Below, piece by piece: positions 10,870 to 39,444 of a stretch of 39,495 nt of DNA. Position 1 is the stretch's first letter, and every line of letters starts with the position of its first letter. Made by a program: the position numbers and the translations under genes. Source of the DNA: Alphaproteobacteria bacterium (GTDB taxonomy: Bacteria; Pseudomonadota; Alphaproteobacteria; SMXQ01); the NCBI GenBank assembly GCA_004356985.1, contig SMXQ01000036.1, positions 1-39,495 of the forward strand, given 5' to 3'. A model generated the notes under the pieces. The model was not told the origin of the DNA. It worked only from the letters and a program-made list of their open reading frames with translations, and did no database searches.

Positions 10870-10915
10870 GGCAAATACCTGCCATATGGTTCGATTTGGC
10901 CCGATTATGCCCTAG
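10866..10915. repeat. Repeat element copy A in an inverted repeat between convergent genes
   Basis: CTAGGGCA (10866-10873) and TGCCCTAG (10908-10915) form outer arms. The inner part (10882-10915, minus strand) reads CTAGGGCATAATCGGGCCAAATCGAACC and belongs to the CTAG repeat family described in the findings. Both flanking genes use a TAG stop that lies within or at these arms. It may act as a bidirectional terminator. Confidence 0.65.
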
Positions 10916-11892
10916 CAGCCGTGGTAGTCGCGGTACCACCGAACGAACAGCGGGATGCCGGCGGTCAGCGAAGTGGTGGGCTTGAAACCGAGGTCCCGGC
11001 CGGCAGCGGTAATGTCGGCGTAAGTTTCCTTGACGTCGCCCGGCTGCATCGGCGCCATCTTGAGGTCGGCCTTCCTGCCGGCCGCCTGCTCGATCATTTC
11101 GATGAACCGCAGCAGCTCCACCGGTTGGTTGTTGCCGATGTTGTAAACCCTGTGGGGCGCCGCGCCGTCGGCCGATTCCGGCGGCCGGTCGAGCGCCGCG
11201 AGGACCCCCGCCACCGCATCGTCGATGTAGGTGAAATCGCGGCGCATGTCGCCATGGTTGAAGACATGGATGGTCTCGCCGCGGAAGATGGCCTCGGTGA
11301 AGGCGTAGTACGCCATGTCCGGCCGGCCCCAGGGTCCGTAAACCGTGAAGAAGCGGAGCCCGGTCGCCGGAATCCCGTAAAGATGGCTGTAGGTATGGCT
11401 GATCAGCTCGTCGGCCTTCTTGGAGGCGCCATAGAGAGAGACCGGCCGCTCCACCGGATCTTCTTCCGAATAGGGTTGCTTCTGGTTGGTCCCGTAGACC
11501 GAAGACGACGACGCATAGACCAGGTGGCGGAGATCCTCCATATGGCGGCAGGTCTCCAAGATGTTGAGATGTCCCCCGATATTGTCGCGCACATAGGCTT
11601 GGGGGTTGATCAGGGAATAGCGTATCCCCGCCTGGGCCGCGAGATGGACCACCCCGGTGACGCCGCCGAGGCCGCGCGAAAGGGCCGCCATGGCGCCCTC
11701 ATCGGCGATATCGAGCCGCTTGAAGGTGAACCCGTGATGGGTTTCGAGCCGGTCGAGGCGCGCCTTTTTCAGCGCCACGTCGTAGTATTCGTTCAGGTTA
11801 TCGACGCCGATCACGTCGTCGCCGCGCGCCATCAGCGCCTCGGCGACGTGGTAGCCGATGAAACCGGCGACGCCGGTCACGAGGATGGTCAT
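10912..11892 (-). CDS. NAD-dependent epimerase, UDP-glucuronate 4-epimerase type
   Basis: A 326-residue extended short-chain dehydrogenase. The NAD-binding TGVAGFIG is at residues 6-13 and the catalytic Tyr154-Gly-Ala-Ser-Lys158 follows SVYGTNQKQPYSEEDP. VDNLNEYYDVALKKARL and the HLAAQAGIRYSLINPQAY block match the UDP-glucuronate epimerase (LpsL/CapI) group, which makes UDP-galacturonate for surface polysaccharide; substrate is inferred. The ATG at 11892 begins exactly at the Rossmann strand, with AGGAGG about 12 bases upstream; the longer ORF start is rejected. No polysaccharide genes are adjacent. Confidence 0.88.
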   Translation of the reverse strand: MTILVTGVAGFIGYHVAEALMARGDDVIGVDNLNEYYDVALKKARLDRLETHHGFTFKRLDIADEGAMAALSRGLGGVTGVVHLAAQAGIRYSLINPQAYVRDNIGGHLNILETCRHMEDLRHLVYASSSSVYGTNQKQPYSEEDPVERPVSLYGASKKADELISHTYSHLYGIPATGLRFFTVYGPWGRPDMAYYAFTEAIFRGETIHVFNHGDMRRDFTYIDDAVAGVLAALDRPPESADGAAPHRVYNIGNNQPVELLRFIEMIEQAAGRKADLKMAPMQPGDVKETYADITAAGRDLGFKPTTSLTAGIPLFVRWYRDYHGC

Positions 11893-12025
11893 GGGCGGAT
11901 CGCCCCTCCTTGCCAAATCCCCCACCGTATAGCCTGGTGGGCGGGCAAAATCACCCCTCACGAAGAATCCGGGTCATCGCCTGGCGCCGCCGGGAAGGCC
12001 GGCGACCAGGGCATGCTCCCATGAC

Positions 12026-12244
12026 GACCCCCACCGCAATACGGCCGAGCGCAGGCTTGAGAGGGCGGAGCGGGAAGAGTATGAACAGGACCTGACGCGC
12101 ATTTGCCGGTCTCTCGGCCCTGAGAGTTTCGGCCTTTGCCTTAAACTTGCGGCCCTGCCGCTGGCGGCCCGTGGCTTCGGCCGCGTGAAACAGGCCGCCG
12201 TGGAGAAGATCGCGCCGCGCGGAGATTCGCGCCGCCCTCGATAA
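12026..12244 (+). pseudogene. 3' remnant of an indolepyruvate ferredoxin oxidoreductase-like gene
   Basis: The frame ending in TAA at 12242-12244 reads protein-like from about 12026: NTAERRLERAEREEYEQDL, then LCLKLAALPLAARGFGRVKQ. This resembles the extreme C-terminus (DUF6537 region) of large indolepyruvate oxidoreductases, where a TAERR..ER..IAEYE segment is followed by ..ALP..IRGFGHVK. Upstream in the same frame the sequence loses coding character and meets a stop at 11930. No start codon or remainder of the more than 1,100-residue protein is present, so this looks like a deletion relic. It is absent from the ORF track. Confidence 0.5.
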
Positions 12245-12252
12245 GGAGGACC

Positions 12253-12369
12253 ATGGTCAACTGGCCGCACAATAGGTTTTGGATGACGCCGATCGCGGCC
12301 CCCGAGAGCGGCCCCCTCGCCGCCGACCCCATGGCCAGGTCCTTGCCAGCAGGTGAAACCACGCGGTGA
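12253..12369 (+). CDS. Small ORF (38 aa) coupled to the first MFS gene
   Basis: An ATG at 12253 sits 3 bases after AAGGAGGA, the best Shine-Dalgarno sequence in this region, and opens a 38-codon frame, MVNWPHNRFWMTPIAAPESG and on. Its TGA (12367-12369) overlaps the GTG start of the first MFS gene as GTGA. It could be a leader peptide that couples translation to the transporter. It could also be a chance frame left in relic sequence next to the indolepyruvate oxidoreductase fragment. I recognise no function in the peptide. Confidence 0.4.
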   Translation: MVNWPHNRFWMTPIAAPESGPLAADPMARSLPAGETTR

Positions 12370-13637
12370 GCATGGTCAGCCCCTTGACCGGGTTCACGCG
12401 GGCCATGCGCCATCGCCACTACCGGAACTACACCTGCGGCAGTGTGCTGTCGTTGATCGGCACCTGGACCCACCGGGTGGCGCTCGGCTGGCTAAGCTGG
12501 CAACTGACCGGGTCCTACGCCTGGCTCGGCATCATCGCCTTCGCCGATATGTTCGTGATGATGCTGTTTTCCCCCCTCGCCGGCGACCTCGCCGACCGCA
12601 TGGACCGGCGGAGAGTCGCGTTCTGGTCCCAATTCGCGATGATGTGCCAGGCGATAACCATCGCCGTCCTGGTGTTTGCCGACCTGATGGGCATCTGGCT
12701 GCTGTTGACCATGACCCTTCTGCTCGGCGTGATGCACGCCTATCACACCGCCTCGCGGCTTGCCATGGTGCCCAATTTGGTCCCCTTGGAAGACCTGACG
12801 CCGGCCATCGCCATCAATTCCCTGATCTTCAACGTGGCGCGTTTCCTGGGCCCGGCGGTGGCCGGTTTGATCATCGCCAATTTCGGCGTGGGACCGGCCT
12901 TCGCCTTCAACGCCTTGACCTTCACCGTCTTTCTGGTGGTGCTGGGACGGCTCGAACTGCTGCGCGAAGAACACCGGCCCGGCCCCAGCCAGGGCGTGTT
13001 CTCCAATATCGCCCATGGGGTGCGTTACGCGGTGGGGCACGCCGGGATCGGGCCGCTCTTGGTGATGCTGACCATCACCGCCTTCGCCGGACGGTCGCTG
13101 CCCGACCTGCTGCCCGGATTCGCCGATGCCGTTTTCCGGCGCGGGCCGGAGGGCCTCGCCTGGCTGACCTCGATGATGGGGCTGGGCGCCATGCTGTCTG
13201 GATTCGTGTTCCTGGCCCGCGACGGTGTGGTGGGAATGACCGCCATCGTGCTGCACTGCCTGGTGCTGCTCGGACTTACCATGATCGTGTTCGTGTTGTT
13301 CGATACCTTCTGGGTCGCCTTGGTAATGATCGCGGGGATCGGCTTCTTCATGAACCTCAACTCCATCGGCGTCCTCAATCTCATGCAGAACGTGGTGGAC
13401 GGCCCCCTGCGCGGCCGGGTGATGTCGATCTACACGATCCTCCATCAAGGGGCGCCGGCGGCCGGCACGCTGCTGCTCGGCGCCACCGCCGAATACACCG
13501 GCCTGGCTTGGCCGGTGGCGGCGGCGGGAATGCTGGGGATCGTGTTCTGGCTGGTGATGCTGCCCAGGCTCGGCGCCATGACCGCGGCGCTAGAGGGCGC
13601 GGCCCACGCCGCGCCGCGCGCGGGGACCGGCGCTTGA
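12366..13637 (+). CDS. MFS transporter, first of a tandem pair
   Basis: A 423-residue inner-membrane protein with about 12 hydrophobic segments, of the MFS_3/EntS-like group of exporters. The motif-A type loop GDLADRMDRRRV lies between helices 2 and 3, and LLPGFADAVFRRGPEGLAWL starts the second half. I use the GTG at 12366, which overlaps the stop of the 38-codon ORF; an ATG two codons later (12372) is the alternative. The following gene is clearly paralogous and overlaps by 4 bases, so the two are probably made together. The substrate is unknown. Confidence 0.85.
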   Translation: MSMVSPLTGFTRAMRHRHYRNYTCGSVLSLIGTWTHRVALGWLSWQLTGSYAWLGIIAFADMFVMMLFSPLAGDLADRMDRRRVAFWSQFAMMCQAITIAVLVFADLMGIWLLLTMTLLLGVMHAYHTASRLAMVPNLVPLEDLTPAIAINSLIFNVARFLGPAVAGLIIANFGVGPAFAFNALTFTVFLVVLGRLELLREEHRPGPSQGVFSNIAHGVRYAVGHAGIGPLLVMLTITAFAGRSLPDLLPGFADAVFRRGPEGLAWLTSMMGLGAMLSGFVFLARDGVVGMTAIVLHCLVLLGLTMIVFVLFDTFWVALVMIAGIGFFMNLNSIGVLNLMQNVVDGPLRGRVMSIYTILHQGAPAAGTLLLGATAEYTGLAWPVAAAGMLGIVFWLVMLPRLGAMTAALEGAAHAAPRAGTGA

Positions 13638-14881
13638 TCCGAACCGGCAGCTGGAGCCATGTCGTCCAGGCGCTCCGCCACCGCGACCACAGGCGGTTCA
13701 ACGCGACCCTGTTTCCGGCCCTGATCAGCCTGTGGGGCCAGCGCACCGGAATCGGCTGGCTGACCTGGGAGCTGACCCATTCGCCGACCTGGCTGGGCAT
13801 CGTCGCCGCCGCCGACCTGCTGCCAGGGATTTTTCTTTCGCCCTTCGCCGGGGTGACCGCCGACCGCGCCGTGCCGCTCAAGATGATGCGCCTTACCCAG
13901 GGCATCATCCTGGCGCACGCCCTAATGCTGGCTGTCCTCACGGCTAACGGTTGGATCAATGTCTGGATCCTTTTGGCCCTGTCGTTGCTCACCGGCGTCA
14001 ATCAGCCCTACGCCATAGCCGCCCGCATGGTGTTCTTCCCGCACCTGGTTCCCAGGGATGAGCTCGGCACCGCCGTCACCATCAATTCCACCATCTTCAA
14101 CCTTGGCCGGGCGGTGGGTCCGGCGCTGGCCGGCCTGATGATCGGACCGTTGGGCGTCGCCTCTGTATTTTTCCTGAATTTCGCGGCCTTCCTGGCGCAT
14201 TGGATCAACCTGTTCCGCATCCGCGCGGTCCGCGTCGAGCGCCACGCCGCCCAGCGCCGGGGGATGTTGGCCGAGGTGGCCGAGGGACTGCGCTATACGG
14301 CGCGGCATCCCGGCATCGGGCCGTTGCTTCTGCTTTTGGTGGTGGCATCCATGATGTCGCGCCCGCTTGGCGAATTGCTGCCCGGTTTCGCCGACGAAGT
14401 CTTCGCCCGCGGCCCCCAGGGACTGGGGTGGCTCTTGACCGCCATGGGCGTGGGCGGGCTGCTCGGCGCCATCTGGCTCACCGGCCGCGCGCCGGGGAAG
14501 GGACTGACCAACGTGGTGCTGTCGACGACCCTGGTCATGGGCCTGGCCCTGCCCGCCTTCGCCTTGGTGGAGAATTTCTCCATGGCGCTGGGTTTCCTGG
14601 TGATTCTGGGCTTCATGCTGGTGGTTTCGGGAACCGGCACCCAGGCATTGATGCAGATGGCGGTGGCGAGCGCGTTCCGGGGCCGGGTGATGTCGCTTTA
14701 TTCGGTGGTGTTCCGGGGCATGCCGGCGATCGGCGCCATCGTCCTTGGCCTGGTGGCCGAGGTTTTGGGGTTGGGCCTGGCGGTGGCCGGCGCCGGCGTG
14801 ATCTGCGTGTTGGCCTGGGCCGCCGCCCTGCCCAGGCGCGGAACCCTGCAGGCCGCCCTGGAGGCGCCGCCCGAGGATTGA
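13634..14881 (+). CDS. MFS transporter, second of a tandem pair
   Basis: A 415-residue paralogue of the preceding transporter. Both share GIGPLL, LLPGFAD and RGRVMSLYSV/RGRVMSIYTI blocks. The first in-frame start is a TTG at 13634 that overlaps the preceding TGA as TTGA; no ATG or GTG occurs before the conserved helix 1. The ORF track joins this frame to unrelated antiparallel coding upstream (842 residues); only the part from 13634 is real. The motif-A loop is weaker here (GVTADRAVPLKMM), losing the basic run, so the two copies have diverged. Confidence 0.82.
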   Translation: MIRTGSWSHVVQALRHRDHRRFNATLFPALISLWGQRTGIGWLTWELTHSPTWLGIVAAADLLPGIFLSPFAGVTADRAVPLKMMRLTQGIILAHALMLAVLTANGWINVWILLALSLLTGVNQPYAIAARMVFFPHLVPRDELGTAVTINSTIFNLGRAVGPALAGLMIGPLGVASVFFLNFAAFLAHWINLFRIRAVRVERHAAQRRGMLAEVAEGLRYTARHPGIGPLLLLLVVASMMSRPLGELLPGFADEVFARGPQGLGWLLTAMGVGGLLGAIWLTGRAPGKGLTNVVLSTTLVMGLALPAFALVENFSMALGFLVILGFMLVVSGTGTQALMQMAVASAFRGRVMSLYSVVFRGMPAIGAIVLGLVAEVLGLGLAVAGAGVICVLAWAAALPRRGTLQAALEAPPED

Positions 14882-22402: not shown

Positions 22403-22528
22403 TCAGCCCTGGCGGGCCTTGAAGCGGGGGTTGCGCTTGTTGATCACGTAGACGCGGCCCTTCCGCCGCACGATGCGGCAGTTCTTATCGCGGGTCTTGG
22501 CCGACTTGAGGGAATTGAGAACCTTCAT
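22403..22528 (-). CDS. rpmJ: 50S ribosomal protein bL36, zinc-free form
   Basis: A 41-residue protein starting [20 protein letters not shown] and ending NPRFKARQG, the alphaproteobacterial bL36. It has a single cysteine, so the four-ligand zinc ribbon of the classical form is missing; this is the C-minus type. The ORF track begins at 22603, but family alignment fixes the start at the ATG at 22528. It is flanked by its own promoter and terminator, so it is a single-gene unit. Confidence 0.95.
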
Positions 22529-26666: not shown

Positions 26667-27566
26667 ATGTGGAATATTCACGCAAGACGGCAAAGAAAAA
26701 CCTCGCTGCTGCAGAGGTATGGCGACCAGCTGGGGCATCTGGCGACGCGCGAGCTGACGGAACAGGCCCTGATCGCCGCCAAGCAGGAGGCCGAGCAGTC
26801 GGCCAAGGCGGCCCGCGAATCCATGAAGACCGCCGAGGCGGCCAGCCGCGCCAAGACCGAATTTCTCGCCAATATGAGCCACGAGTTGCGCACGCCGCTC
26901 AACGCCATCATTGGATTCTCCGAGGTGATCCACAACGAGCTACTGGGCCCTACCGCCGAAACGCCCCGCTATCGGACCTATGCCAAGGACATCAACGACG
27001 CCGGCGCCCATCTTCTCGCCGTGATCAACGACATCCTCGACATCGCCAAGATCGAATCCGGCGAACTGGGGCTGGATACCAATATTTTCGACAGCTCCAA
27101 GAGCATCAGGGCGTGTATCCAAATGCTCAACGAGCAGGCGGAATCGTCCGGACTACAGGCCCTTAGATTCGACCATGACGGATCCATAGTGCTCGACGCC
27201 GACGAGAAGAAATTCCGCCAGATCGTGATCAACCTGATTTCGAACTCGATCAAATTTACCCTTGAGGAAGGATGCGTGTCGGTGGAGACCGGCATTACCG
27301 AAGATGGCCGTTTCCGCATGGTGGTGGCCGATACCGGGATCGGAATCGAACCCGAAAATATTGCCAAGGCACTCGAGCCCTTTACCCAGGTGGACAGTAC
27401 GCTGGCCCGCAAATTCGAAGGCACGGGCCTGGGGCTTCCCATCACAAAGGCCCTGGTGGAACTCCATGACGGCACCCTGGAAATCACATCCGAGGTCGGC
27501 GTCGGAACCCGCGTCATCATCCATTTTCCGGCTGAGCGCGTCGCCAAGACCGAAGTGGATGCTTAA
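26667..27566 (+). CDS. Soluble histidine kinase, PleC/DivJ-like
   Basis: A 299-residue kinase without membrane segments or a recognisable sensor domain. A coiled-coil-like Ala/Glu/Lys-rich N-terminus (residues 30-65) leads into the HisKA domain [20 protein letters not shown], with phospho-acceptor His72. The ATPase domain has the N box QIVINLISNSIKF, the G1 box VADTGIGIEPEN and the G2 box GTGLGLPITKAL. The HisKA sequence is the type seen in alphaproteobacterial PleC/DivJ kinases. No response regulator is adjacent. The HerA-like gene begins 3 bases after the stop, so the two are almost certainly cotranscribed. Confidence 0.9.
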   Translation: MWNIHARRQRKTSLLQRYGDQLGHLATRELTEQALIAAKQEAEQSAKAARESMKTAEAASRAKTEFLANMSHELRTPLNAIIGFSEVIHNELLGPTAETPRYRTYAKDINDAGAHLLAVINDILDIAKIESGELGLDTNIFDSSKSIRACIQMLNEQAESSGLQALRFDHDGSIVLDADEKKFRQIVINLISNSIKFTLEEGCVSVETGITEDGRFRMVVADTGIGIEPENIAKALEPFTQVDSTLARKFEGTGLGLPITKALVELHDGTLEITSEVGVGTRVIIHFPAERVAKTEVDA

Positions 27567-27569
27567 ACC

Positions 27570-29282
27570 ATGACCTATCAGGATTACGCAGAGAAAATCG
27601 AGTCCTTCGCCAAGGAGGAACAAGCCCGCACCGCAGACGCGGCCGCCGGCAAGATCGGTGCGGTTGAGGCCACCCGTGCGGCGGGGGCCGCGGAAAAGAT
27701 CGGCCGCGTGGTATCCGTGGCGGGTTCCCAGGTCATTGCCCTGCTGGCGGCGGAGGACACGCCGGACCACGCCGAGCACCCCGGCACCCTTCAAATCGGC
27801 GCATTGGTGAAAATGCGCACCCCCGAAACCATGGTCTTCGGCATGGTGAGCGGCCTTTCCATCCCCATTCCCGGGCAATCCCCCGACGAAACGGAAATGC
27901 GCATCGTCGAGCTTGAAATGGTTGGCGAAGCGGTGGAGGGAGCCGACGGCAAAGCCATACCTTTCCGCCGTGGGGTGTCTTTCTGCCCCGCGCTCGGCGA
28001 CGACGTCTACGCGACCAACCAAGAGGACCTGAGGCACGTCTACGCCCGGCCCGATGTCGCCAGCGCCAGGATCGGCACCATATACCAGGATCAAAGCCTG
28101 CCCGCCTTCATCGCCATCGATGACCTTCTCGGCAAGCATTTCGCGATCCTGGGGACCACCGGGTCGGGCAAATCCTGCGCCGTCGCCACCATATTGCGGG
28201 CGATCCTGAGCCAACACCCCGAAGGCCACGTCTTGCTTCTTGACATCCACAACGAATATGGCCACGCCTTCGCCGACTGCGCCGAGCTCCTTGGACCAAG
28301 CACGTTGAAGCTCCCCTATTGGCTTCTTAGTTTCGACGAATTGCGGGAAATCGTGGTCGAGCGGGTGGAGAATCGCGAGGCCGACGTCAGCATCCTCAAG
28401 GCCGCCGTGATTCATGCCAAACAAGATTTCAACAAAGACGGTGACGGCGAAGAATTTTTCTTCAGTGGCGACTCGCCGATCCCCTATCGCTTGTCGGACG
28501 TTGTCCGGCACATCGAGGAATCCCTCGGCAAGCTCGAAAGGGCGACCGATTCGGCGCCTTATTTGCGCTTGCGGGACCGCATCAACACGCTTCAGGCAGA
28601 CCGCCGATTCAAATTCATGTTCGAAGAAGGATTGACCATCAAGGACACCATGGTCGATATCCTCTCCCTGCTTTTCCGCATCCCCGCCGACGGCAAGCCG
28701 ATCACCATTCTCGATCTCTCCGCGATTCCCTCGGACATCTTGAACGTGGTGATATCCCTGGTGTGCCGGTTGACCTTCGATTTCGCGCTGTGGGCGGAGC
28801 GCGACGTGCCCATGCTTCTGGTCTGCGAAGAAGCCCACCGTTACGCGTCGCAAAACGACGAATCCGGCTTCGAGACGACCAAGCGGGCGCTGTCCAGGAT
28901 CGCCAAGGAAGGCCGCAAATACGGCGTTTCCATGTGCATCGTCAGCCAGCGGCCGTCGGAACTCGCGGTCGGTATTCTCTCTCAGTGCAACACCATTTTC
29001 GCCATGCGCATGAGCAACCAGAAGGACCACGAATTCGTCCGTGGCACGCTTTCGGAATCGGCCCTTGGGCTGATGGAATCGCTCCCCTCGCTGCGCACCG
29101 GCGAAGCCATAGCTGTGGGCGAAGGCCTCACGGTGCCGGTGCGCCTGTGTTTCGACCTGCTGCCCGAAAACCAGCGGCCCCTGAGTGGAACCGCGTCATT
29201 CTCCAGCGCTTGGAAAAAGGGCGACAAGGACAGGGCTTTCGTTGCCGAGATCATCGCTCGCTGGCGCCGCCAGCGCCGCTGA
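27570..29282 (+). CDS. HerA-type ATPase (DUF87, HAS-barrel)
   Basis: A 570-residue P-loop ATPase of the HerA/FtsK superfamily. A leading charged region (1-45) is followed by a HAS-barrel-like domain starting IGRVVSVAGSQVIALL. Walker A is GTTGSGKS (195-202) and Walker B LLVCEEAH (416-423). The downstream VSQRPSELAVGILSQCNTIF block matches the arginine-containing sensor region of HerA. HerA rings pump DNA with the nuclease NurA in archaea and occur with SIR2 or other effectors in phage defence. Here no nuclease is adjacent; the partner is a histidine kinase 3 bases upstream. Confidence 0.88.
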   Translation: MTYQDYAEKIESFAKEEQARTADAAAGKIGAVEATRAAGAAEKIGRVVSVAGSQVIALLAAEDTPDHAEHPGTLQIGALVKMRTPETMVFGMVSGLSIPIPGQSPDETEMRIVELEMVGEAVEGADGKAIPFRRGVSFCPALGDDVYATNQEDLRHVYARPDVASARIGTIYQDQSLPAFIAIDDLLGKHFAILGTTGSGKSCAVATILRAILSQHPEGHVLLLDIHNEYGHAFADCAELLGPSTLKLPYWLLSFDELREIVVERVENREADVSILKAAVIHAKQDFNKDGDGEEFFFSGDSPIPYRLSDVVRHIEESLGKLERATDSAPYLRLRDRINTLQADRRFKFMFEEGLTIKDTMVDILSLLFRIPADGKPITILDLSAIPSDILNVVISLVCRLTFDFALWAERDVPMLLVCEEAHRYASQNDESGFETTKRALSRIAKEGRKYGVSMCIVSQRPSELAVGILSQCNTIFAMRMSNQKDHEFVRGTLSESALGLMESLPSLRTGEAIAVGEGLTVPVRLCFDLLPENQRPLSGTASFSSAWKKGDKDRAFVAEIIARWRRQRR

Positions 29283-30446: not shown

Positions 30447-30938
30447 TCAGCCCGCCTTGCCCGCTAGCCGGTCGTCGAGATCGCCGAGGGAACCATAGGG
30501 GTGGTCCATGTGTCCGGCGAACCTTTCGCGCGGGGCGTTGAGGTAGATCTCGATCATGTTGCGGTCGGGATCGAGGAAATAGATGCTCTCGGTCACCCGG
30601 TGATCGACGGTGTGGTGGATCTCGGCGCCGATCTCCTTCAGCCGCCGATAGACCGCCTGAAGGGTGGCGAAATCGTCGGAGTCGAGCTCGAAGGCCCAAT
30701 GCTCCATGCCGATATAGGGTTCGGGATCGACCGGGCGCGGCGCCGCGCCGGCGTCGGCGGCCTGTTCCAGGACCAACAGGGGCTGGACGTCTTCCGGGTC
30801 GGCCGCCAGGTAGAGCCGGCCCAAAGGATCGTCGCCGATGACGTGGAGGTTGAGCGCCTTTTCGTAGAACCCGCGCGAGCGCGCCAAGTCGGTGACCCGG
30901 AGCGTCAGGTGGCTGGTCCGCACCATGGGGCCGGTCAT
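30447..30938 (-). CDS. VOC-fold protein, extradiol dioxygenase/glyoxalase-like
   Basis: A 163-residue protein of the vicinal oxygen chelate superfamily. The expected metal triad is present: a His in TSHLTLRVTDL, a His in GMEHWAFEL, and a Glu in NMIEIYL. It is therefore a plausible metal enzyme of the catechol 2,3-dioxygenase or glyoxalase type, with unknown substrate. The ATG at 30938 (MTGPMVRTSHL) is chosen. It follows the second VOC gene by 10 bases and shares its promoter. Confidence 0.82.
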   Translation of the reverse strand: MTGPMVRTSHLTLRVTDLARSRGFYEKALNLHVIGDDPLGRLYLAADPEDVQPLLVLEQAADAGAAPRPVDPEPYIGMEHWAFELDSDDFATLQAVYRRLKEIGAEIHHTVDHRVTESIYFLDPDRNMIEIYLNAPRERFAGHMDHPYGSLGDLDDRLAGKAG

Positions 30939-30948
30939 GGCCGCCGCC

Positions 30949-31416
30949 TCAGGCCGGGGCCGCAAGGGCGGCATCGAGATCGCCGCGCACGGTGAAATGA
31001 TCGGTGAGCCGTGGCGCGTCATTCCCCTCGCGGCAATAGAATTGGAACAGGTTGCCGTCGGGATCGTAGGCGAACAGCGCCTTGACGCCGCCGCGGTCCT
31101 CGCTGCGGTCGATGCGCGCGCCGAATTCCCGAAGCCGCCCGTGGAGCGCCTTCAGTTCGGCAAACGACCCCACCTCGAAGGAGGCCTGGGCCATGCCGAT
31201 CGGCGCCCCGGCATCGGCCGGCGGCGCGCCGGGCTTGGCCGGGCGCACCAGCACCATATGGTGGTTGGCCTCGAAATCCGCGGTCAGGAAAATCATCTTC
31301 CGCGCGGTGCTGCCGATGACCGTGAGGCCCACCACCTCGGTGAAGAACCGGGCCGCGCGGTCCACGTCGGCGACCCGGATGACGACGTGACCGGCCCGTC
31401 TGACCTTGAAGTCCAT
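30949..31416 (-). CDS. VOC-fold protein lacking two metal ligands
   Basis: A 155-residue VOC protein, first of the pair. The first ligand position is kept (GHVVIRVADV), but the second His is replaced by Gln (GMAQASFEV, against GMEHWAFEL next door) and the final Glu by Gln (NLFQFYC against NMIEIYL). It may be non-catalytic, bind ligand only, or use other residues such as the His pair in NHHMVLV. The ATG at 31416 follows GGAGGG. The promoter is at 31480-31508. Confidence 0.8.
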   Translation of the reverse strand: MDFKVRRAGHVVIRVADVDRAARFFTEVVGLTVIGSTARKMIFLTADFEANHHMVLVRPAKPGAPPADAGAPIGMAQASFEVGSFAELKALHGRLREFGARIDRSEDRGGVKALFAYDPDGNLFQFYCREGNDAPRLTDHFTVRGDLDAALAAPA

Positions 31417-31769
31417 GACACCCTCCTGTTTCCGCGAGCCGCCCTTGACGGGCGGTCTCAGGCCCGGCTGGGCGGCCCCAGTATAGCGAAACCCGCGCCT
31501 GGGGTCAGGCCGACCTGACCGAAGGCGAAACAGCCGGGATTTAGCGCCACCGCCGGTCCATCCTCGGTGGCGGGTCCAGGGCGCCAAATCCTCCCTGAAC
31601 ACCCGGACCACGCGCCGGATCACCGGATGGCGGCGGGCCGCCGGGCGGCGATGAAGGTCGCGCGTTCGCCGAAAATGAAGCCACCAAAACAGGCCCGGCA
31701 ATGGAAAAGACCGCCGCCGCCGCCCGAAAGTAAATTCTCAGGGCGCGGCCGCGCCGTGAAGGGGTGGGC
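31417..31769. other. Intergenic region upstream of the VOC pair
   Basis: No gene is supported in these 353 bases. The part near the VOC start carries a hairpin CCGCCC/GGGCGG (31439-31455) in the leader and the promoter. A 14-base perfect palindrome GGCGCGGCCGCGCC lies at 31742-31755, just past the phytase-like gene stop. The 190-codon plus-strand frame is a shadow of the phytase-like gene. Confidence 0.5.
31480..31508 (-). promoter_or_regulatory. Probable promoter of the VOC pair
   Basis: On the minus strand CTGACC is followed after 17 bases by TATACT, about 65 bases before the ATG at 31416. Confidence 0.5.
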
Positions 31770-33140
31770 CTATTTCCCGTCCGGCACCTTGATCACGGTG
31801 ATCAGGGTGCGTTCGCCCTCAAGACCGAAATCGTTATCGTTGATCAGCGCCAGGGTGCCGTCGCCCAGCAGCGCCATGGCTTCTATCTTGGCGGGGATTT
31901 CGGGATGGGCATCGCTGTCGAAGCGCAGCGCCTTGGACACCGGCCGGATTCCGGACTCGGACACAGGCGTCTGCTCAAGGCTGGGCCGGGTGGATACCGC
32001 GTCCCAGCGGGACCCCAGGATATTTGTCGCACCCCCAAGATCGACGGCAAAAAGCTTCATGGATTTCCGCACGCGTTCCAGAACAAGAAGCCGGTCAGGG
32101 CCGATCGCCATCATCTCGCTGATTTTCACGTCACGCTGATTTTGGGAATCGTCGCGACGGAAACCTTCCGGCCTGTCCAGCACGTAGACAAATTCCGCGA
32201 TCACCTTCCCGGCTTTGCGGTCGAACTTGAAAAGTCGAACATTGCGGCCCCTCTTGAAGGCCCTGGTGTCGGGGTTTGCTAGGGGGCTTTGCAGCGCAAA
32301 ATAGAGGAACCGCTCATCGGGGCTGAGCGCCAGCGATTCAATCCCCCGGTTTGTCCGGCGCTTGGAGAGTATTGCAGGCAGCCCCCCCGATACAGGGTAC
32401 CTGGCCGCCCGCAAGTCATTTTCCATGCCTTGCGGTACCATACGCAACAAGACGCGCCCGGCCGCCGAAACGTGGAGGATGGACGGCGCGCCTTCATCGG
32501 CGATCCAGTAGCTGCCATCGGCCAGCCTGACCATGGCTTCCGGATCGACGGCGCCGGCGTCCTGCTGGAGACGCCTTCCCTTGGCATCGAAGGGAATACC
32601 CGCCTTTCCCTTGCCCAATGGGTTGGGGAGCCCGGTCAGCGCCTTGCCGTCCCTGTCCCGCAAGGCAATCACATCGAGGACGCGGAATCGTCCGTTCGCT
32701 TCAAGCCTGATGGTGTAGATGGACGGCGCGTAGGCCGGAAGTGGATAGATACGGGCCCCTTTGGTCCCCGAACACAGTTCATCCCGCGACAGGCCGGTCC
32801 ATTTTTGGCCCTTCTTGCAACTGAACCGAGGGCCACGATCGGTCACCGTCTGCAACACCATGGGCGGCAGGGACGGATGCCGGTACGCACCGGACCCCAG
32901 CCCCGCACTGAAATGCAGACTGTTTCCACCGGCAAAATGAACGACACCCAAATCCAGCTTGCGGTCCGTGCTCGAATAGATTTTCGGCGATACGGCGGGC
33001 CGTTCCGCGCCCGCCACGACCGGCGCGAGAAACACGGCCGGGGTGGCCGCCAATAAAAACGCCAGCCCGATCTTTCCGGGAAGAATCGCCTCCCCGCGTT
33101 CGCAAGCACCAAGAAACAGCATTGCTTTCAAATATTCCAT
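31770..33140 (-). CDS. Secreted esterase-like phytase-family protein (PF13449 type)
   Basis: A 456-residue protein with a signal-type hydrophobic stretch (IGLAFLLAATPAVFLAPVVAGA, about 24-45), so probably periplasmic. The beta-propeller-like body has SLHFSAGLGSGAY, QTVTDRGPRF, AVDPEAMVRLADGSYWIADEGAPSIL, NRGIESLALSPDERFLYFALQSPL and KIEAMALLGDGTLALINDNDFG, the succession typical of the esterase-like domain found in phytase-related proteins. The ORF track start at 33761 runs through the divergent PhnD-like gene and is not real; the ATG at 33140 is used. The substrate is not proven. Confidence 0.82.
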   Translation of the reverse strand: MEYLKAMLFLGACERGEAILPGKIGLAFLLAATPAVFLAPVVAGAERPAVSPKIYSSTDRKLDLGVVHFAGGNSLHFSAGLGSGAYRHPSLPPMVLQTVTDRGPRFSCKKGQKWTGLSRDELCSGTKGARIYPLPAYAPSIYTIRLEANGRFRVLDVIALRDRDGKALTGLPNPLGKGKAGIPFDAKGRRLQQDAGAVDPEAMVRLADGSYWIADEGAPSILHVSAAGRVLLRMVPQGMENDLRAARYPVSGGLPAILSKRRTNRGIESLALSPDERFLYFALQSPLANPDTRAFKRGRNVRLFKFDRKAGKVIAEFVYVLDRPEGFRRDDSQNQRDVKISEMMAIGPDRLLVLERVRKSMKLFAVDLGGATNILGSRWDAVSTRPSLEQTPVSESGIRPVSKALRFDSDAHPEIPAKIEAMALLGDGTLALINDNDFGLEGERTLITVIKVPDGK

Positions 33141-33326
33141 GACCCCGACCCCGGGGGAAAACGCTGTCGGCACCCTAGCATGCGAGCCGACCGAAACGTT
33201 GTGAAGGCGGTTTAACGCCCGGGTTGTAACGCCATTATTAATAATTTGGTAACCATTTTCGCCTCTTATTTGAGAACACATTCTAGCTGCGGAATAAGTC
33301 CAAAAACTCAGAAAGTGGGGATAGTC
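33141..33326. promoter_or_regulatory. Divergent promoter region with CtrA-like site
   Basis: Between the phytase-like gene (minus) and the PhnD-like gene (plus) lie a hairpin GTCGGC/GCCGAC (33167-33192), a 12-base perfect palindrome ATTATTAATAAT (33233-33244) and an overlapping TTAA-N7-GTAACCAT (33238-33256), one base off the CtrA pattern. TTGAGA with AATAAG 17 bases on (33270-33298) is a plausible promoter for the PhnD-like gene. Confidence 0.45.
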
Positions 33327-34271
33327 ATGAGTAATGGAAATACTGCCTTGATTTCTGCTGCGGTCCACCGTACGAAAAATGCGAAAAAATTGACACTCGT
33401 TGGTGCACTTTGCGCTTTCGTTCTTTCCTTCGGCGCCTTCGGTGCCGCCGCCGAGACCAAGATCGTCTTCGGCGCCTATTCGTCGGACAAGCCTTCGGCG
33501 ATGATCGCCCAGGTTCAACCGACGCTTAAGGCCATTTCCAAAAAAATAGCGGAGATGTATGGCGTAAAAGTGACCTTCCGCATGCAGATCGTGCGGGGCT
33601 ACAAGAAGGGTGTCGATCACCTGATAGCTAAGAAGTTCGACATCATGCGGCTTGGTCCGGCGTCCTACGTCATGGCCAAGAAACGCGCGCCGAATATTTC
33701 CATTCTCGCCATGGAAAACAAGAGGGGCCGCAAAATCTTCGATGGGGTTATTGCCGTCCATAAGGACAGCGCCCTTTCAGAGCTCACCCAATTGCGCGGC
33801 CGGACCTTCGCTTTCGGTTCAAAGCGCTCGACCCTGGGCCGCTTCTTCGCGCAACTGACCCTGACGCGGGCCGGCATCCTGGCCAAGGACCTGCACAGCT
33901 TCAAATACCTTGGGCGTCACGACAAGGTCGGCCGGGCGGTGGGCGCCAAGCTGTTCGAAGCCGGCGCCCTGGAAGGAACAACTTTCGCGAAACTCGTCCG
34001 CAAGGGCGTTCCCATCCGCGCCCTGGCCAAGTATTCCAATGCGACCCGGCCCTGGATCGCCCGGGAAGGGCTTGCCCCCGGCATCGTCGCCAAAATCCGC
34101 AAAGCCATGCTTGCCGTCACCGACAAGAAAGCCACGCGGGCGTTGCGGTTCAACGGCTTCCTGCCGGGTAGCGACGCCGACTACGGCGCCACGCGACAAG
34201 CCATCGAAGAAAACCACCTTTTCTTCGAAGGATTCGTCGGTTTCAAGCCCCAACAGCAAAGCCGGCGCTGA
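33327..34271 (+). CDS. PhnD-like periplasmic phosphate/phosphonate-binding protein
   Basis: A 314-residue protein with a signal peptide (LTLVGALCAFVLSFGAFGAAAET) and the PhnD-type fold: IVFGAYSSDKPSAMIAQVQP at the mature N-terminus, a KKFDIMRLGPASYVMAKKR segment lining the ligand cleft, then FAFGSKRSTLGRF and YLGRHDKVGRAVGAKLFEAGAL. Such proteins bind phosphite, phosphonates or related anions. The ATG at 33327 follows GTGGGG. No ABC permease or ATPase gene is nearby; instead a histidine kinase follows after 58 bases, suggesting that this protein is a sensory receptor rather than a transport component. Confidence 0.85.
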   Translation: MSNGNTALISAAVHRTKNAKKLTLVGALCAFVLSFGAFGAAAETKIVFGAYSSDKPSAMIAQVQPTLKAISKKIAEMYGVKVTFRMQIVRGYKKGVDHLIAKKFDIMRLGPASYVMAKKRAPNISILAMENKRGRKIFDGVIAVHKDSALSELTQLRGRTFAFGSKRSTLGRFFAQLTLTRAGILAKDLHSFKYLGRHDKVGRAVGAKLFEAGALEGTTFAKLVRKGVPIRALAKYSNATRPWIAREGLAPGIVAKIRKAMLAVTDKKATRALRFNGFLPGSDADYGATRQAIEENHLFFEGFVGFKPQQQSRR

Positions 34272-34329
34272 TCCGGGGTTCGGAAGGGACAGTCACTTTT
34301 CCCGAGGATCCTGACTGGGGGAGGCCAGG

Positions 34330-35790
34330 GTGCTGAGCTTTAAACTCAGTTCGCAACTACTGTTTGCTCTGGTCCTGGTGGCGGTCGTCACCGCCCTTGG
34401 GACCGGGGTTGCGATTCAGTGGTTCGAGCGATCCTATCTTGAAAAGCAGATTTACGAACACGCACAGGATAAGCTGCAGACCCTCATCGCGTCCTCGCTG
34501 GATGATCTCATCAGCGAGGATGTTCCCCGCCTGGAAACCACGGTTCAGCAATTGGCCAAGAAGGACCAGGAGCTGGCTGGGATCATCATTCACAATGAAG
34601 ATGGGGTTGAACTGTTAGCGTGGCGGCAAAAGCGTTATCCACCCGAACAAGACATCCATCGATTTTCAAAGCGTGTTGTATTTCTCAACCAGCGCTTTGG
34701 CACCATTGAGATCCAGTGGAACAAAAAGAACACCGAAATAGCCTTCGTCCGCCATTCGTACCGAATTGCCCTGTTCATCGGTTTTACCTGCCTGTTCTTG
34801 GGGCTCGTGGTCTTCCTGGTCATAAATGTCCTGGTGGTGCGGCCGGTCAATACCATCGCCCGGCGCGCGCTGAAATTCCGGCATAACGAATTTGGCCGAG
34901 GCGACCAGATTCCATCCTATGCCTCCTCCGAACTGAGGCGCCTTGACATGGCGGTGGAATCGCTCGGCGCCCTGCTGCAATCGAATGAAATCCGTGAACA
35001 GGAACTCAACACCGCGAAAGAATGGGCGGAGGCCGCCAACCGGGCGAAATCAAATTTCCTTGCCAACATGAGCCACGAATTGCGCACCCCGCTGAATGCC
35101 ATTTTAGGGTTTTCCCAGGTCATGGAAGCCGAAGTTTTCGGCCCCATGCAGAATGATAAATATTTGGAATACGCGGGAGACATCAGAAAATCCGGCGATC
35201 ATCTACTCGGTATCATCAGCGAAATTCTCGACATGTCGAAAATCGAGGCCGGCAAGTTCGATCTGAACCTAGGCGCCGTGGATTTGCGCCAGACCATCGA
35301 ATACGGCCTCAACCTGCTGACCGCCGAAATGGAAAAGGCCGAGTTGGACCTTTCGGTCGACATTCCCCATGAATTGCCCCTGATCCATGCCGATGAACTG
35401 CGCATGCGCCAGATCATCATCAATATCTTGTCCAACGCGATCAAGTTCACGCCGAAGAATGGAACCATCACGGTTGCCGTGAACTGGGCCCCCGGCAAGG
35501 GTACGAAACTGCGCATCAAAGATTCCGGCATCGGCATCCCGGAAAACAATATTCACCGCGTCCTGATGCCCTTCGAACAGGTGGACAGCGTCATGTCCAG
35601 CACCAGGCAAGGATCCGGGCTGGGGCTGCCTCTGGCCAAGGCATTGGTCGAACTTCAGGGCGGAACCCTTGCGATCACAAGCACCGTCGGCAAGGGGACG
35701 GAAGTCATCATCTCCCTGCCCGACGAATTGTTCCTGTCAGAGGCGGACTATTATCCCCCCGGCGACACCACGCCCCTCAAGATCGCATAG
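34330..35790 (+). CDS. Membrane sensor histidine kinase, PleC/DivJ-like
   Basis: A 486-residue kinase with an N-terminal membrane helix (about 8-30), a periplasmic domain of about 110 residues, a second helix (about 145-170, [25 protein letters not shown]) and a HAMP-like linker. HisKA has [20 protein letters not shown], and the ATPase domain has [26 protein letters not shown] and [12 protein letters not shown]. Translation starts at a GTG after GGGGGAGG. The preceding PhnD-like protein may present a phosphorus ligand to the periplasmic domain. No response regulator is adjacent. It converges with the phosphatase-like gene 4 bases away. Confidence 0.9.
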
Positions 35791-35794
35791 GCGA

Positions 35795-37057
35795 TTATCC
35801 GCCAAACAGTCCCCGGGACTTTTTGATAGCGCACTCGGCCCGCCAGTTGCGCGGAATCGCATCCGCAACCACCTTGCGGAAGCGATCGATGGGACAGTAT
35901 TCCCCCCCGCAGCCGGGAATTTTGATGGTTTGTTCGCCTTCATCAGATACGAATCGCAGCCGCACCGAATATTTCTTTTCGGCACGTTCGTGCAATTCAA
36001 ACGCATAGCGCGAACCAAGCGGCGGGACGCGGCCCTTGAACAGCGGCCCTTCGGTGCGGGCGGTTTCGATTCCAAGCGCCGCCTCGAGTCCCAGCACCGT
36101 GCGCTGATGCCCGGAATAGATGAAGAGCTTGCGCCCGCGCTGAGGATCTTTCACGAACCTTAAAAAGTTGCGCAACACCTCGCCGACCAGCGGTCCGCCT
36201 GTCAGGCGGCCCATCTTCTTGCCGAGAAACTGGTGGTGGTAATTCCAGTCTGACAGCTCACGCAAGAGCTCCATGTCCTTGTTGGTGATTTCCTTGCTCA
36301 AGGGCTTTTTATGGACGATGAAAGCGGTCAGCGGTTCGTAGATTTCGTTGATACCGTACAGAATTTTTGCCGGTGTCTTGCCTTCGTTGATGCCCGTGAT
36401 CGCCGCCATGCGCAGAAGGAAGGGCGAATAACGCTTGGCCTGGGCCCGGTACAGCTTGCTTTTGGGAAGCGCCTTCACGAATTGCCGGTAGCGCTTGCAG
36501 TTGGCTTGGCCGGTCCAGGGGCGCATCACGGCATCGTTCCTGAGGGCCACCGCGTGGATCGGCACCGGCGTGAAAGCGAGGCCGGGCGCCGGCACCGCCT
36601 TCAGGGAACTATCATAGACCGCCGGGTCGGCACCGGTTCCAAGGGGAAAAAGGCCGAGCGCCAGCACCTGCGCGGTCTGCAGCGCGCGGTCCGCGTTAGA
36701 GGACCGGAAATACACTTCCCGGAGGTTATAGCGCCCGGATATCAGGCCCAGCTTATCCACATATTTCGCGCGCAGGGCCTGGCCATAGGCGTAGGTGCGC
36801 TGCACCCCGATAGCCGTAAGCTGGCGGTAGCCCATGGGCCATTCGGCCTTGATCTTGGGCGGGCTGTATTTGGGCGAGATGACGCTGTGCCGGAAGACCA
36901 TGCTTACCGAACGAAGGGTCGAACGGCCGTCCGCGGCAACCGCGGTCTGGCTGGACTGGGCGAGGGCGTCGCCGATCAACGCCGCCGAGACCAAGGCCGC
37001 CGCGAGGGGCCCTGTGAACTTAGCTGGCGGTGAGAAAACTCGTACGCATCTGGTCAT
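35795..37057 (-). CDS. Secreted histidine acid phosphatase-like protein with altered active site
   Basis: A 420-residue protein of the branch 2 histidine phosphatase family (acid phosphatases, phytases). A signal peptide is likely (KFTGPLAAALVSAALIGDALAQ). The nucleophile motif is FRHSVISP (Arg56-His57) rather than RHGxRxP, so the second Arg is gone. The distal HD motif, SGHDTT in relatives, reads SGHQRT (His317-Gln318), losing the acid. VYFRSSNADRALQTAQ and the C-terminal GGEYCPIDRF are family-like. It may be slow, altered in specificity, or non-catalytic. Its start overlaps the end of the VTC gene by 38 bases, indicating coupled expression. Confidence 0.8.
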   Translation of the reverse strand: MTRCVRVFSPPAKFTGPLAAALVSAALIGDALAQSSQTAVAADGRSTLRSVSMVFRHSVISPKYSPPKIKAEWPMGYRQLTAIGVQRTYAYGQALRAKYVDKLGLISGRYNLREVYFRSSNADRALQTAQVLALGLFPLGTGADPAVYDSSLKAVPAPGLAFTPVPIHAVALRNDAVMRPWTGQANCKRYRQFVKALPKSKLYRAQAKRYSPFLLRMAAITGINEGKTPAKILYGINEIYEPLTAFIVHKKPLSKEITNKDMELLRELSDWNYHHQFLGKKMGRLTGGPLVGEVLRNFLRFVKDPQRGRKLFIYSGHQRTVLGLEAALGIETARTEGPLFKGRVPPLGSRYAFELHERAEKKYSVRLRFVSDEGEQTIKIPGCGGEYCPIDRFRKVVADAIPRNWRAECAIKKSRGLFGG

Positions 37058-37760
37058 GGGATTTCTCCATTGCTAACGCGAATTTGGACAGGGTTTGCTG
37101 CTCGAGACCGAGACAACGCAACTTGTCCATGAGCAAACCGGAAATCTTGCCGTTGTATTTCAATTCCATGATGAAATGGGTCGGCGGCACGACCTCCAGC
37201 AGGCTGCCGGGGGGAACGGCCATGGTGGTCGACATGGAACAGTGGAGTTCTTCATCGAACGTCATGCGGAGATCGTGCTGGAATCGCCCGTTGAACGCGG
37301 TCCGGAAATAAACCACGGTCACCACCGGGCTCAGGGCGAAACGGTCGGACAGGTAATTGAATTCGGCCAGAACCGAATTTTCCAGTTCGCGCGGGGAAAG
37401 GTTCAAAGGCCCAGGCGCAAGAAGGCGCCGGGCAAGGCCGGCGTCGATCTGGACACGCCTTTTCTCGACGATGCGATCGTATCGGGCCTTCAGTTCCAGG
37501 TAGATGGCCGATGGCGGCGCGGTCGGTGTGGAACGATAAAGCCGAATACGCGGCTTGATGCGGATCAGTTCGCCTTCGCGCTTTTCACCGTAAAAACGGT
37601 AATAGGGCGAATCGAAATAGATCGAATAATTGACGTAGGCCCCCTGGGGGCCACCGTTGGGATCACACTCGAAGTAGCCGCCAAGTGTCTGGCGCAATTC
37701 CGGTATCTGCGCCGTTTCGACCAAGTACTTGATCTCGTACCTGTTGGTGAAGGCGACCAT
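37020..37760 (-). CDS. VTC domain polyphosphate polymerase-like protein
   Basis: A 246-residue protein resembling the VTC domain, a triphosphate tunnel enzyme fold that in yeast Vtc4 makes polyphosphate from ATP. The tunnel's alternating acidic and basic strands are visible: RYEIKYLV near the N-terminus, IYFDSPYYRFYGEK, IRIKPRIRLYR, IYLELKARYDRIVEKRRVQI, VVYFRTAFNGRFQHDLRMTFDEEL and FIMELKYNGKI. I use the ATG at 37760; a GTG at 37793 would add 11 residues. It lies in an operon DUF4956-VTC-phosphatase, the usual bacterial VTC neighbour being DUF4956. Activity is inferred. Confidence 0.85.
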   Translation of the reverse strand: MVAFTNRYEIKYLVETAQIPELRQTLGGYFECDPNGGPQGAYVNYSIYFDSPYYRFYGEKREGELIRIKPRIRLYRSTPTAPPSAIYLELKARYDRIVEKRRVQIDAGLARRLLAPGPLNLSPRELENSVLAEFNYLSDRFALSPVVTVVYFRTAFNGRFQHDLRMTFDEELHCSMSTTMAVPPGSLLEVVPPTHFIMELKYNGKISGLLMDKLRCLGLEQQTLSKFALAMEKSHDQMRTSFLTAS

Positions 37761-37833
37761 CTCTATGCAAAGCGGACAGCGCCCGCCATGCACCGAACGA
37801 CGGCATGCCGCCGCTCATGGGCGAACGGATGCG

Positions 37834-38526
37834 TCATGCGTTCACCGTGCCTTCGCCAACCAGCAGGCTTATGGACAATGGATCGACCGCCTTGGAAAGC
37901 GTGTCCACCAACTGGTCGTACTTGATGCCGCGCTTGAGGTGCACCTCGTAGACGATGTCTTCCATGTTATCGCCGCTTTCCATGCGGCTGACGGAAACAA
38001 CGGAAAAACGCTCGCACATGTCCTGGCAAAGTTTGGAAATGTATTCCCGGTCGCCCGTCCGCATGCGCATTTTCAGGACGTAGCCTTCTTCCTTGACGTC
38101 GCCGAATCGCCCATAATGCATGGCCAGAACGATGATCAACATGAAGCCTACGAAGATACCCGCGAACTCATAGAATTGGGTCCCGCAGGCCATCCCCACG
38201 GCAATGCTGGCGAACAGGAAAACCAGATCCTTGGTATCCTTGACCGGGGTGCGAAACCTAACGATCGACATGGCGCCCACCAGTGCGAAAGCACGGGCGA
38301 TGTCGGACCCGATAATGACCATGATCAGGGCGACGGTGATGCCGACGAGAATAAGGGCCTGGACGAATGACTTGGAATACGAATACCCGCCGTGGGTCAT
38401 CATATAGAGTTTCGCCAGAATGCCATTGAAAACGGTGGTCAGAAGCAGGGCAAGGCCAATATCGATCACTGTCACCGACGCAAGCATCGCCGTCTCGTTC
38501 AATATCAAATCACTAAAATCTTCCAT
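37834..38526 (-). CDS. DUF4956 membrane protein
   Basis: A 230-residue protein with several membrane helices in its first two thirds (IDIGLALLLTTVFNGILAKLY; ALILVGITVALIMVIIG; FAGIFVGFMLIIVLAMHYG) and a soluble alpha/beta C-terminal domain. The core FALVGAMSIVRFRTPVKDTKDLVFLFASIAVGMACG is the hallmark of DUF4956, a family regularly next to VTC-domain genes. It could anchor the polymerase or form an exit path for polymer, which is inference. The ATG at 38526 follows GAGGTG. It is first in the operon, about 280 bases from a CtrA-like box. Confidence 0.88.
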   Translation of the reverse strand: MEDFSDLILNETAMLASVTVIDIGLALLLTTVFNGILAKLYMMTHGGYSYSKSFVQALILVGITVALIMVIIGSDIARAFALVGAMSIVRFRTPVKDTKDLVFLFASIAVGMACGTQFYEFAGIFVGFMLIIVLAMHYGRFGDVKEEGYVLKMRMRTGDREYISKLCQDMCERFSVVSVSRMESGDNMEDIVYEVHLKRGIKYDQLVDTLSKAVDPLSISLLVGEGTVNA

Positions 38527-39066: not shown

Positions 39067-39444
39067 CTAGCGTCCGATATTCAGGAGCCCGCCGACCCAC
39101 CATTGGGGACGGCCGGGTGCTCTTTTCATCACTTCGCGACGATATTTTTCCGGCAGGGGATGCCGCGAAATGAGGCTGTCGCGCAAGGTCGGAGAAACCA
39201 ACGCAACCAATCTCATGATCACCGCTTCGGATAGATAAGGCCGCGCGATGATCGCCGCATGCACCGATACGTGATGGGGAAATTCATCCAGAATATCCAT
39301 CAGTTGGCTCTCTGGAATTTCACTGGCGCCATCGGCCAGCCGGTCGATCAAGGATGTCACGTTCGCCCCCGGCGCCAAACTTTCGGCGCGCGCCAGGGCG
39401 CCCGGCGTCCCCGGCGTCGATGAATTTTCTAGCAAGGTATTCAT
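39067..39444 (-). CDS. Short DUF2336-like protein
   Basis: A 125-residue protein whose middle and end, IARPYLSEAVIMRLVALVSP followed by LRDSLISRHPLPEKYRREVM, resemble the C-terminal helical repeats of DUF2336 proteins, which are normally 350 or more residues. It is therefore either a short family member or a truncated one, but it has its own ATG at 39444 and a clean stop. It might be a soluble signalling helper; the function is unknown. A perfect CtrA-like box lies 37 bases upstream. Confidence 0.6.
   Translation of the reverse strand: MNTLLENSSTPGTPGALARAESLAPGANVTSLIDRLADGASEIPESQLMDILDEFPHHVSVHAAIIARPYLSEAVIMRLVALVSPTLRDSLISRHPLPEKYRREVMKRAPGRPQWWVGGLLNIGR

Follow-up and report, generated by a model that had tools for sequence, protein, structure and literature searches.

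The right-hand end of contig SMXQ01000036.1 (Alphaproteobacteria bacterium, assembly GCA_004356985.1) raises the question of whether a row of genes with a phosphorus theme forms one system and what that system would do. The whole contig, 39,495 nucleotides long and contig C116 of a 169-contig genome of 2.69 Mb (90% complete), is referred to here as the window. The block was found to hold a conserved cassette in which a known module, a DUF4956 membrane protein with a VTC-type polyphosphate polymerase, takes a new form: it is linked to a sensor pair, and a phosphatase-like protein stands in the place of the CotH kinase. Tentatively, as a possibility a little short of evenly balanced, we read the cassette as a system for sensor-controlled polyphosphate synthesis at the membrane. 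The genes are as follows.

31770-33140, minus strand: secreted phytase-like/esterase-like protein (PF13449, E 9.5e-49), a divergent neighbour judged to lie outside the cassette.
33327-34271, plus strand: PhnD/PtxB/AioX-like periplasmic binding protein of the sensor pair, with a signal peptide (PF12974, Phosphonate-bd, E 1.5e-41).
34330-35790, plus strand: membrane sensor histidine kinase (HisKA and HATPase_c, without a receiver domain).
35795-37057, minus strand: exported branch 2 histidine-phosphatase protein (HAP) with an altered active site (PF00328, His_Phos_2, E 1.7e-26).
37020-37793, minus strand: VTC-type polyphosphate polymerase domain protein (PF09359, E 3.4e-30), probable start ATG at 37760.
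37834-38526, minus strand: DUF4956 membrane protein (PF16316, E 2.3e-14; weak MgtC match, E 0.008).
39067-39444, minus strand: short DUF2336 protein, upstream of the DUF4956 arm (PF10098, E 5.8e-9).

The first six of these genes had been named in an original prediction made from the DNA letters, and Pfam matches were obtained for all six in the families and at the place proposed. The two facing arms described there are also present: the stop codons of the kinase (35790) and HAP (35795) genes are separated by 4 bp. From the right-hand end, the minus-strand order is DUF2336, DUF4956, VTC and HAP, the last two genes overlapping by 38 bp (HAP start at 37057, VTC end at 37020); the binding-protein gene and the kinase gene, which begins 58 bp downstream of it, converge on them from the plus strand. 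Neither an ABC transporter gene nor a response-regulator gene lies within the block, as had been stated.

Conservation was assessed by searching genome contigs with a three-sequence VTC alignment, which gave 80 loci; a single-sequence scan with the window VTC returned no relatives, and the alignment query was needed. Five of the 80 loci (L029, L030, L031, L034 and L075) carry VTC and HAP genes in the window order, convergent with a kinase and binding-protein pair. Their hosts are Pelagibius and other Rhodospirillales, and the block's closest relatives are those of Rhodospirillales-type alphaproteobacteria. Protein identities between the window and these loci are 41-60%. DUF4956 is encoded directly upstream of VTC in four of the five (the exception is L029), and a DUF2336 gene lies near the block in every one, as in the window. 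When all open frames were compared with one another, this block was the only part common to the window, L029 and the Pelagibius-type loci. The co-localisation of the sensor pair with DUF4956, VTC and HAP is not a chance neighbourhood, because five further contigs carry it between differing flanks, although L030, L031, L034 and L075 are close kin with the same wider context and count as about one lineage, leaving about three independent lineages altogether. The check for a conserved neighbourhood that had been proposed with the original prediction was thereby passed by the block without the phytase-like gene, of which no homologue was found in the five related loci. That gene was removed from the unit first proposed, and the DUF2336 gene, then unlisted, is conserved with the block. 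L029 carries a second copy of the binding-protein gene between its kinase and HAP genes (10831-13920). A kinase/receptor swap at this locus was considered and discarded: the extra copy sits between kinase and HAP, and the first lies at the locus end, upstream of the kinase. VTC and DUF4956 were absent from ten other genomes of the organism's family in a family-level search, plasmid searches found only copies that were distant and either CotH-type or orphan, and no HAP-like protein, and a phylum scan for further HAP-like proteins gave one weak match only.

The polymerase assignment was examined at the level of individual residues. The window VTC scores 105.8 bits against PF09359 (cut-off 23), and a profile built from 24 bacterial sequences matches yeast Vtc4 in the PDB (3g3q) with an E value of 3.9e-18. 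Loss of the catalytic basic residues of Vtc4 had been named as grounds for rejecting a joint system; the window protein has every one of K200, R264, R266, K281, K294, R361, R373, K428 and K458, together with E426, and the 24 sequences show little or no variation at these positions. R196, D243, E279 and D377 are kept as well in the window protein. The AlphaFold model of the window VTC (predicted local distance difference test score, pLDDT, 88.8) has Vtc4 as its top fold match (5iiq/3g3r, E 1.5e-13), with tripolyphosphatases and CyaB-type proteins ranking behind. At the acidic patch of the triphosphatases (residue names from PMC4641920) the window protein is basic like Vtc4 at three positions, but a Glu (RYEIK) replaces Thr198. 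K458 of Vtc4 is described as catalytic; a plant tripolyphosphatase can almost dispense with the equivalent residue (PMC4641920). The window VTC resembles the yeast VTC complex in its triphosphate tunnel metalloenzyme fold and in all of the Vtc4 tunnel residues examined; unlike the yeast complex it has neither an SPX domain nor fused membrane helices, and its membrane partner is DUF4956, which shows no detectable homology to Vtc1. In L018, L019 and L021, where the VTC genes come from a different alphaproteobacterial family (one genome has two), no DUF4956 homologue was detectable nearby.

Polyphosphate in bacteria is usually credited to PPK1 and PPK2. Neither PPK1 (PF02503) nor PPK2 (PF03976) was found in the window's genome, of which a tenth may be missing at 90% completeness; over the whole genome, polyphosphate synthesis may depend on VTC alone.

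Comparison of the 80 loci places the window in a minority class. In 73 of them VTC is accompanied by a CotH kinase gene, nearly always together with DUF4956; a Pfam CotH match was confirmed in L015 and L035, and the same pairing occurs in other proteobacterial and actinobacterial loci. HAP without CotH was found in five loci, two end at a contig edge, and none of the 80 has both. The pair of binding protein and kinase occurs in none of the 73 CotH-type loci, and CotH was not detected in the block or elsewhere in the window's genome (90% complete). In the VTC tree a branch with support 93/91 parts the CotH-type rows from all others, namely the window, the five loci with HAP and the two truncated at a contig end; with its long branches, the tree gives only moderate evidence that CotH may have been replaced by HAP once. 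Genes for CotH, a polyphosphate polymerase and DUF4956 have been noted beside Pel operons of Gram-positives (PMC7112168). The window shares with this module homologous DUF4956 and VTC genes (about 31-61% identity) lying close together, and the plan of a polymerase domain, a membrane protein and a third protein; it differs in having HAP for CotH, a sensor pair facing the operon and no Pel genes.

HAP belongs to the branch 2 histidine acid phosphatase fold family by profile match (PF00328). Among solved proteins its profile lies nearest to prostatic acid phosphatase (E 3e-45) and to bacterial major acid phosphatases. Like prostatic acid phosphatase, the Legionella major acid phosphatase and AppA, it has the fold, a nucleophile motif, R79 and the second His: R11, the nucleophile H12, R79 and H257 correspond to R56, H57, R124 and H317 of the window protein. 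Unlike them it has I60 for R15, the second Arg of RHxxR, and Q318 for the proton donor D258. The nucleophile motif RHGxRxP is accordingly RHSVISP in the window and RH(G/S)xxSP across the orthologues, and HD/HAE is replaced by HQ (GHQRT in six of six). The window protein and its five orthologues (55-57% identity to it) carry these changes without exception. As both positions differ from the standard in every one of the six, the altered active site is, to judge from these proteins, a conserved property and not decay, and with the second Arg lost and HD changed to HQ the residue pattern marks HAP as not a standard phosphatase. The proposal of a phosphatase acting outside the cell has thereby become doubtful. 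The PPIP5K phosphatase, a relative that acts on a phosphoanhydride, gains activity when the Glu at its proton-donor position is removed (PMC11836120), and the phosphohistidine of AppA can discharge to acceptors besides water (PMC9181005). By analogy with these enzymes, we favour a HAP that would either bind or transfer phosphate from polyphosphate-like donors or be a dead, polyphosphate-binding enzyme.

The DUF4956 protein has an RFR...K motif that is invariant across 27 sequences. Its model (pLDDT 79) consists of hydrophobic helices and a C-terminal ACT/ferredoxin-like domain, which matches the C-terminal domain of MgtC (2lqj) weakly (E 0.019, rank 7 in the fold search). MgtC, through a weak Pfam match and this weak fold match, is the only family pointer; kinship to Vtc1 or to any solved membrane protein was sought and none was found. 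A transport role may be proposed from the yeast VTC arrangement. In Sinorhizobium meliloti psymA (L028, 4920-5609) a DUF4956 gene was seen with no VTC nearby; by appearance it adjoins a gene for a caspase-like protein.

The sensor pair has a solved precedent. The binding protein, whose start ATG was read off the sequence, gives profile matches to PtxB (5lv1, E 7e-30), AioX (6esk, E 5e-11), ArrX (6x6b, E 7e-9) and phosphonate-binding proteins. AioX, ArxX and ArrX are kinase-coupled sensor versions of the PhnD-like fold (PMC5908839), and the AioX/AioS pair agrees with the earlier proposal of a receptor and kinase working without a transporter (PMC5908839). As in those systems, a gene for a PhnD-fold protein lies beside a sensor kinase gene without an ABC transporter; unlike them, the window pair has no arsenite Cys, no linked response regulator and no arsenic genes, and the neighbouring operon is another one. 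Arsenite sensing of the AioX type, in which Cys106 binds arsenite, was excluded because the mature window protein contains no Cys, and identity as a PtxB/PhnD transporter component was dropped since permease and ATPase genes are lacking. The motif LGPASY may be compared with FGPLSY of PtxB. The ligand loops carry conserved Lys and Arg residues (GSKRSTLGR, LGRHDKVGR and RLGPASY) that would suit a strongly charged anion, and a phosphorus compound is a plausible ligand. The kinase is 41-42% identical to those of the five other loci and has a conserved extracytoplasmic motif, SED(V/L)PRLETT, and an H-box, SHELR(T/S)PL. On plasmids of Phaeobacter and Leisingera (L111, 2704-10128; L112) a related binding protein and a hybrid kinase are divergent from a 1300-aa protein that joins rhodanese, 60KD_IMP, PPDK_N and PEP-utiliser domains; because of this neighbour, such sensors appear to serve other outputs too. 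In G338 (L110) a similar pair was seen beside what resemble rhodanese domains.

Taken together, these parts can be arranged into the sensor-controlled synthesis that we tentatively prefer. On the cytoplasmic side, the VTC protein, with its observed catalytic residues, would polymerise polyphosphate from ATP. DUF4956, as its membrane partner, would pass or anchor the chain at the inner membrane, as the membrane helices of the yeast VTC complex do. Outside, the HAP-like protein occupies the place held in most bacteria by the CotH kinase and may bind, trim or transfer the product; a site that still has RH, the counterpart of R79 and the second His, but neither the second Arg nor the Asp donor, would be better suited to binding or trimming a phosphoanhydride such as polyphosphate, or to transferring phosphoryl groups from it, than to hydrolysing simple esters. 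By comparison with AioX-AioS-AioR, the binding protein and kinase would respond to an oxyanion outside the cell, with phosphate, phosphite or another phosphorus compound as the likeliest candidates, and would act on the cassette by way of a response regulator encoded elsewhere. This arrangement is favoured because the block is conserved without CotH in five loci whose flanks differ between lineages, HAP-type VTCs group apart from CotH-type ones, the Vtc4 residues are complete and the best fold match is Vtc4, the altered HAP site is fixed, and neither CotH, PPK1 nor PPK2 was found in the genome; the PPIP5K, AppA and AioX/ArxX/ArrX precedents agree with it. Of the joint interpretation first offered, in which an extracellular phosphorus compound is linked to making or exporting polyphosphate, the conserved sensor-linked VTC cassette survives; the phytase-like gene is out, and HAP is non-standard and in the place of CotH. 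A sharper version, an externally regulated system with VTC in place of PPK, export by DUF4956 and handover to an exported phosphohistidine protein acting on phosphate as a transferase and not as a hydrolase, is improbable at present.

Several observations weigh against this account. HAP may be catalytically dead, because it has lost the second Arg of RHxxR, whose mutation greatly reduces the activity of PPIP5K (PMC11836120). The Glu of RYEIK is a tripolyphosphatase-type residue (Thr in Vtc4) and leaves room for hydrolysis by VTC. L029 has no adjacent DUF4956. The link between sensor and output is one of synteny alone, and the same type of binding protein and kinase adjoins unrelated genes elsewhere. 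A Pho-box scan gave nothing close to the arms; its sole match in the window lies at 22522 with three mismatches (chance expectation 1.28), and Pho-regulon membership was dropped on this result. Neither an activity of a bacterial VTC/DUF4956 module nor a functional test of such pairs was found in the literature searched.

Three other explanations were weighed. VTC and DUF4956 could replace PPK in building an intracellular phosphate store, with the sensor turning synthesis on at plentiful phosphate and HAP an ordinary scavenging phosphatase tolerating its changed residues. The intact Vtc4 residues and the genome without detectable PPK1 or PPK2 agree with such a store, which nevertheless seems unlikely: the HAP site is conserved in its altered, non-standard form, its gene takes CotH's place in the module, and ten other genomes of the family manage without VTC. 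Alternatively, VTC and DUF4956 could supply an activated phosphate donor to HAP, acting as a phosphotransferase in CotH's role, the product being a phosphorylated surface polymer or protein, as may also hold for the CotH modules next to Pel clusters. The adjacency of CotH-type genes to Pel operons (PMC7112168), the mutual exclusion of HAP and CotH (5 and 73 loci, none with both) and the retention of the phosphohistidine nucleophile with the proton donor gone speak for this; the window has no polysaccharide cluster and no acceptor is known, and we give it a low probability. That the locus is common by descent only, a mobile AioX/S-type sensor cassette beside a functionally separate DUF4956-VTC-HAP operon, would fit convergent arms, which imply no common promoter, and the related pairs that stand by themselves beside other genes in Phaeobacter, Leisingera and G338, but is quite unlikely given a tail-to-tail pairing conserved in the window, Pelagibius-type and L029 lineages with nothing common in the flanks, and the absence of the sensor pair from all 73 CotH-type loci.

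The remaining genes of the window are housekeeping genes (pyruvate kinase, transhydrogenase, glycolate-oxidase-type genes, nadA and others), and no further polyphosphate genes were seen among them. A pair of glyoxalase/VOC-family genes on the minus strand (30447-31701) adjoins the block. At 26667-29282, a 299-aa kinase with HisKA and HATPase_c but without a Pfam sensor domain is encoded directly upstream of a same-strand gene for a 570-aa protein, HerA/DUF87-type ATPase-like as judged by eye alone.

The cassette is compact and conserved, has its sensor attached and lies in a genome without detectable PPK, which allows a joint test of ligand, regulator, polymerase, membrane partner and outside protein. 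The HAP-type variant could reveal the purpose of the third partner, which is CotH elsewhere and phosphatase-like in the window. The cassette as a whole suggests that a few alphaproteobacteria make and export polyphosphate in a regulated manner without the usual bacterial enzymes.

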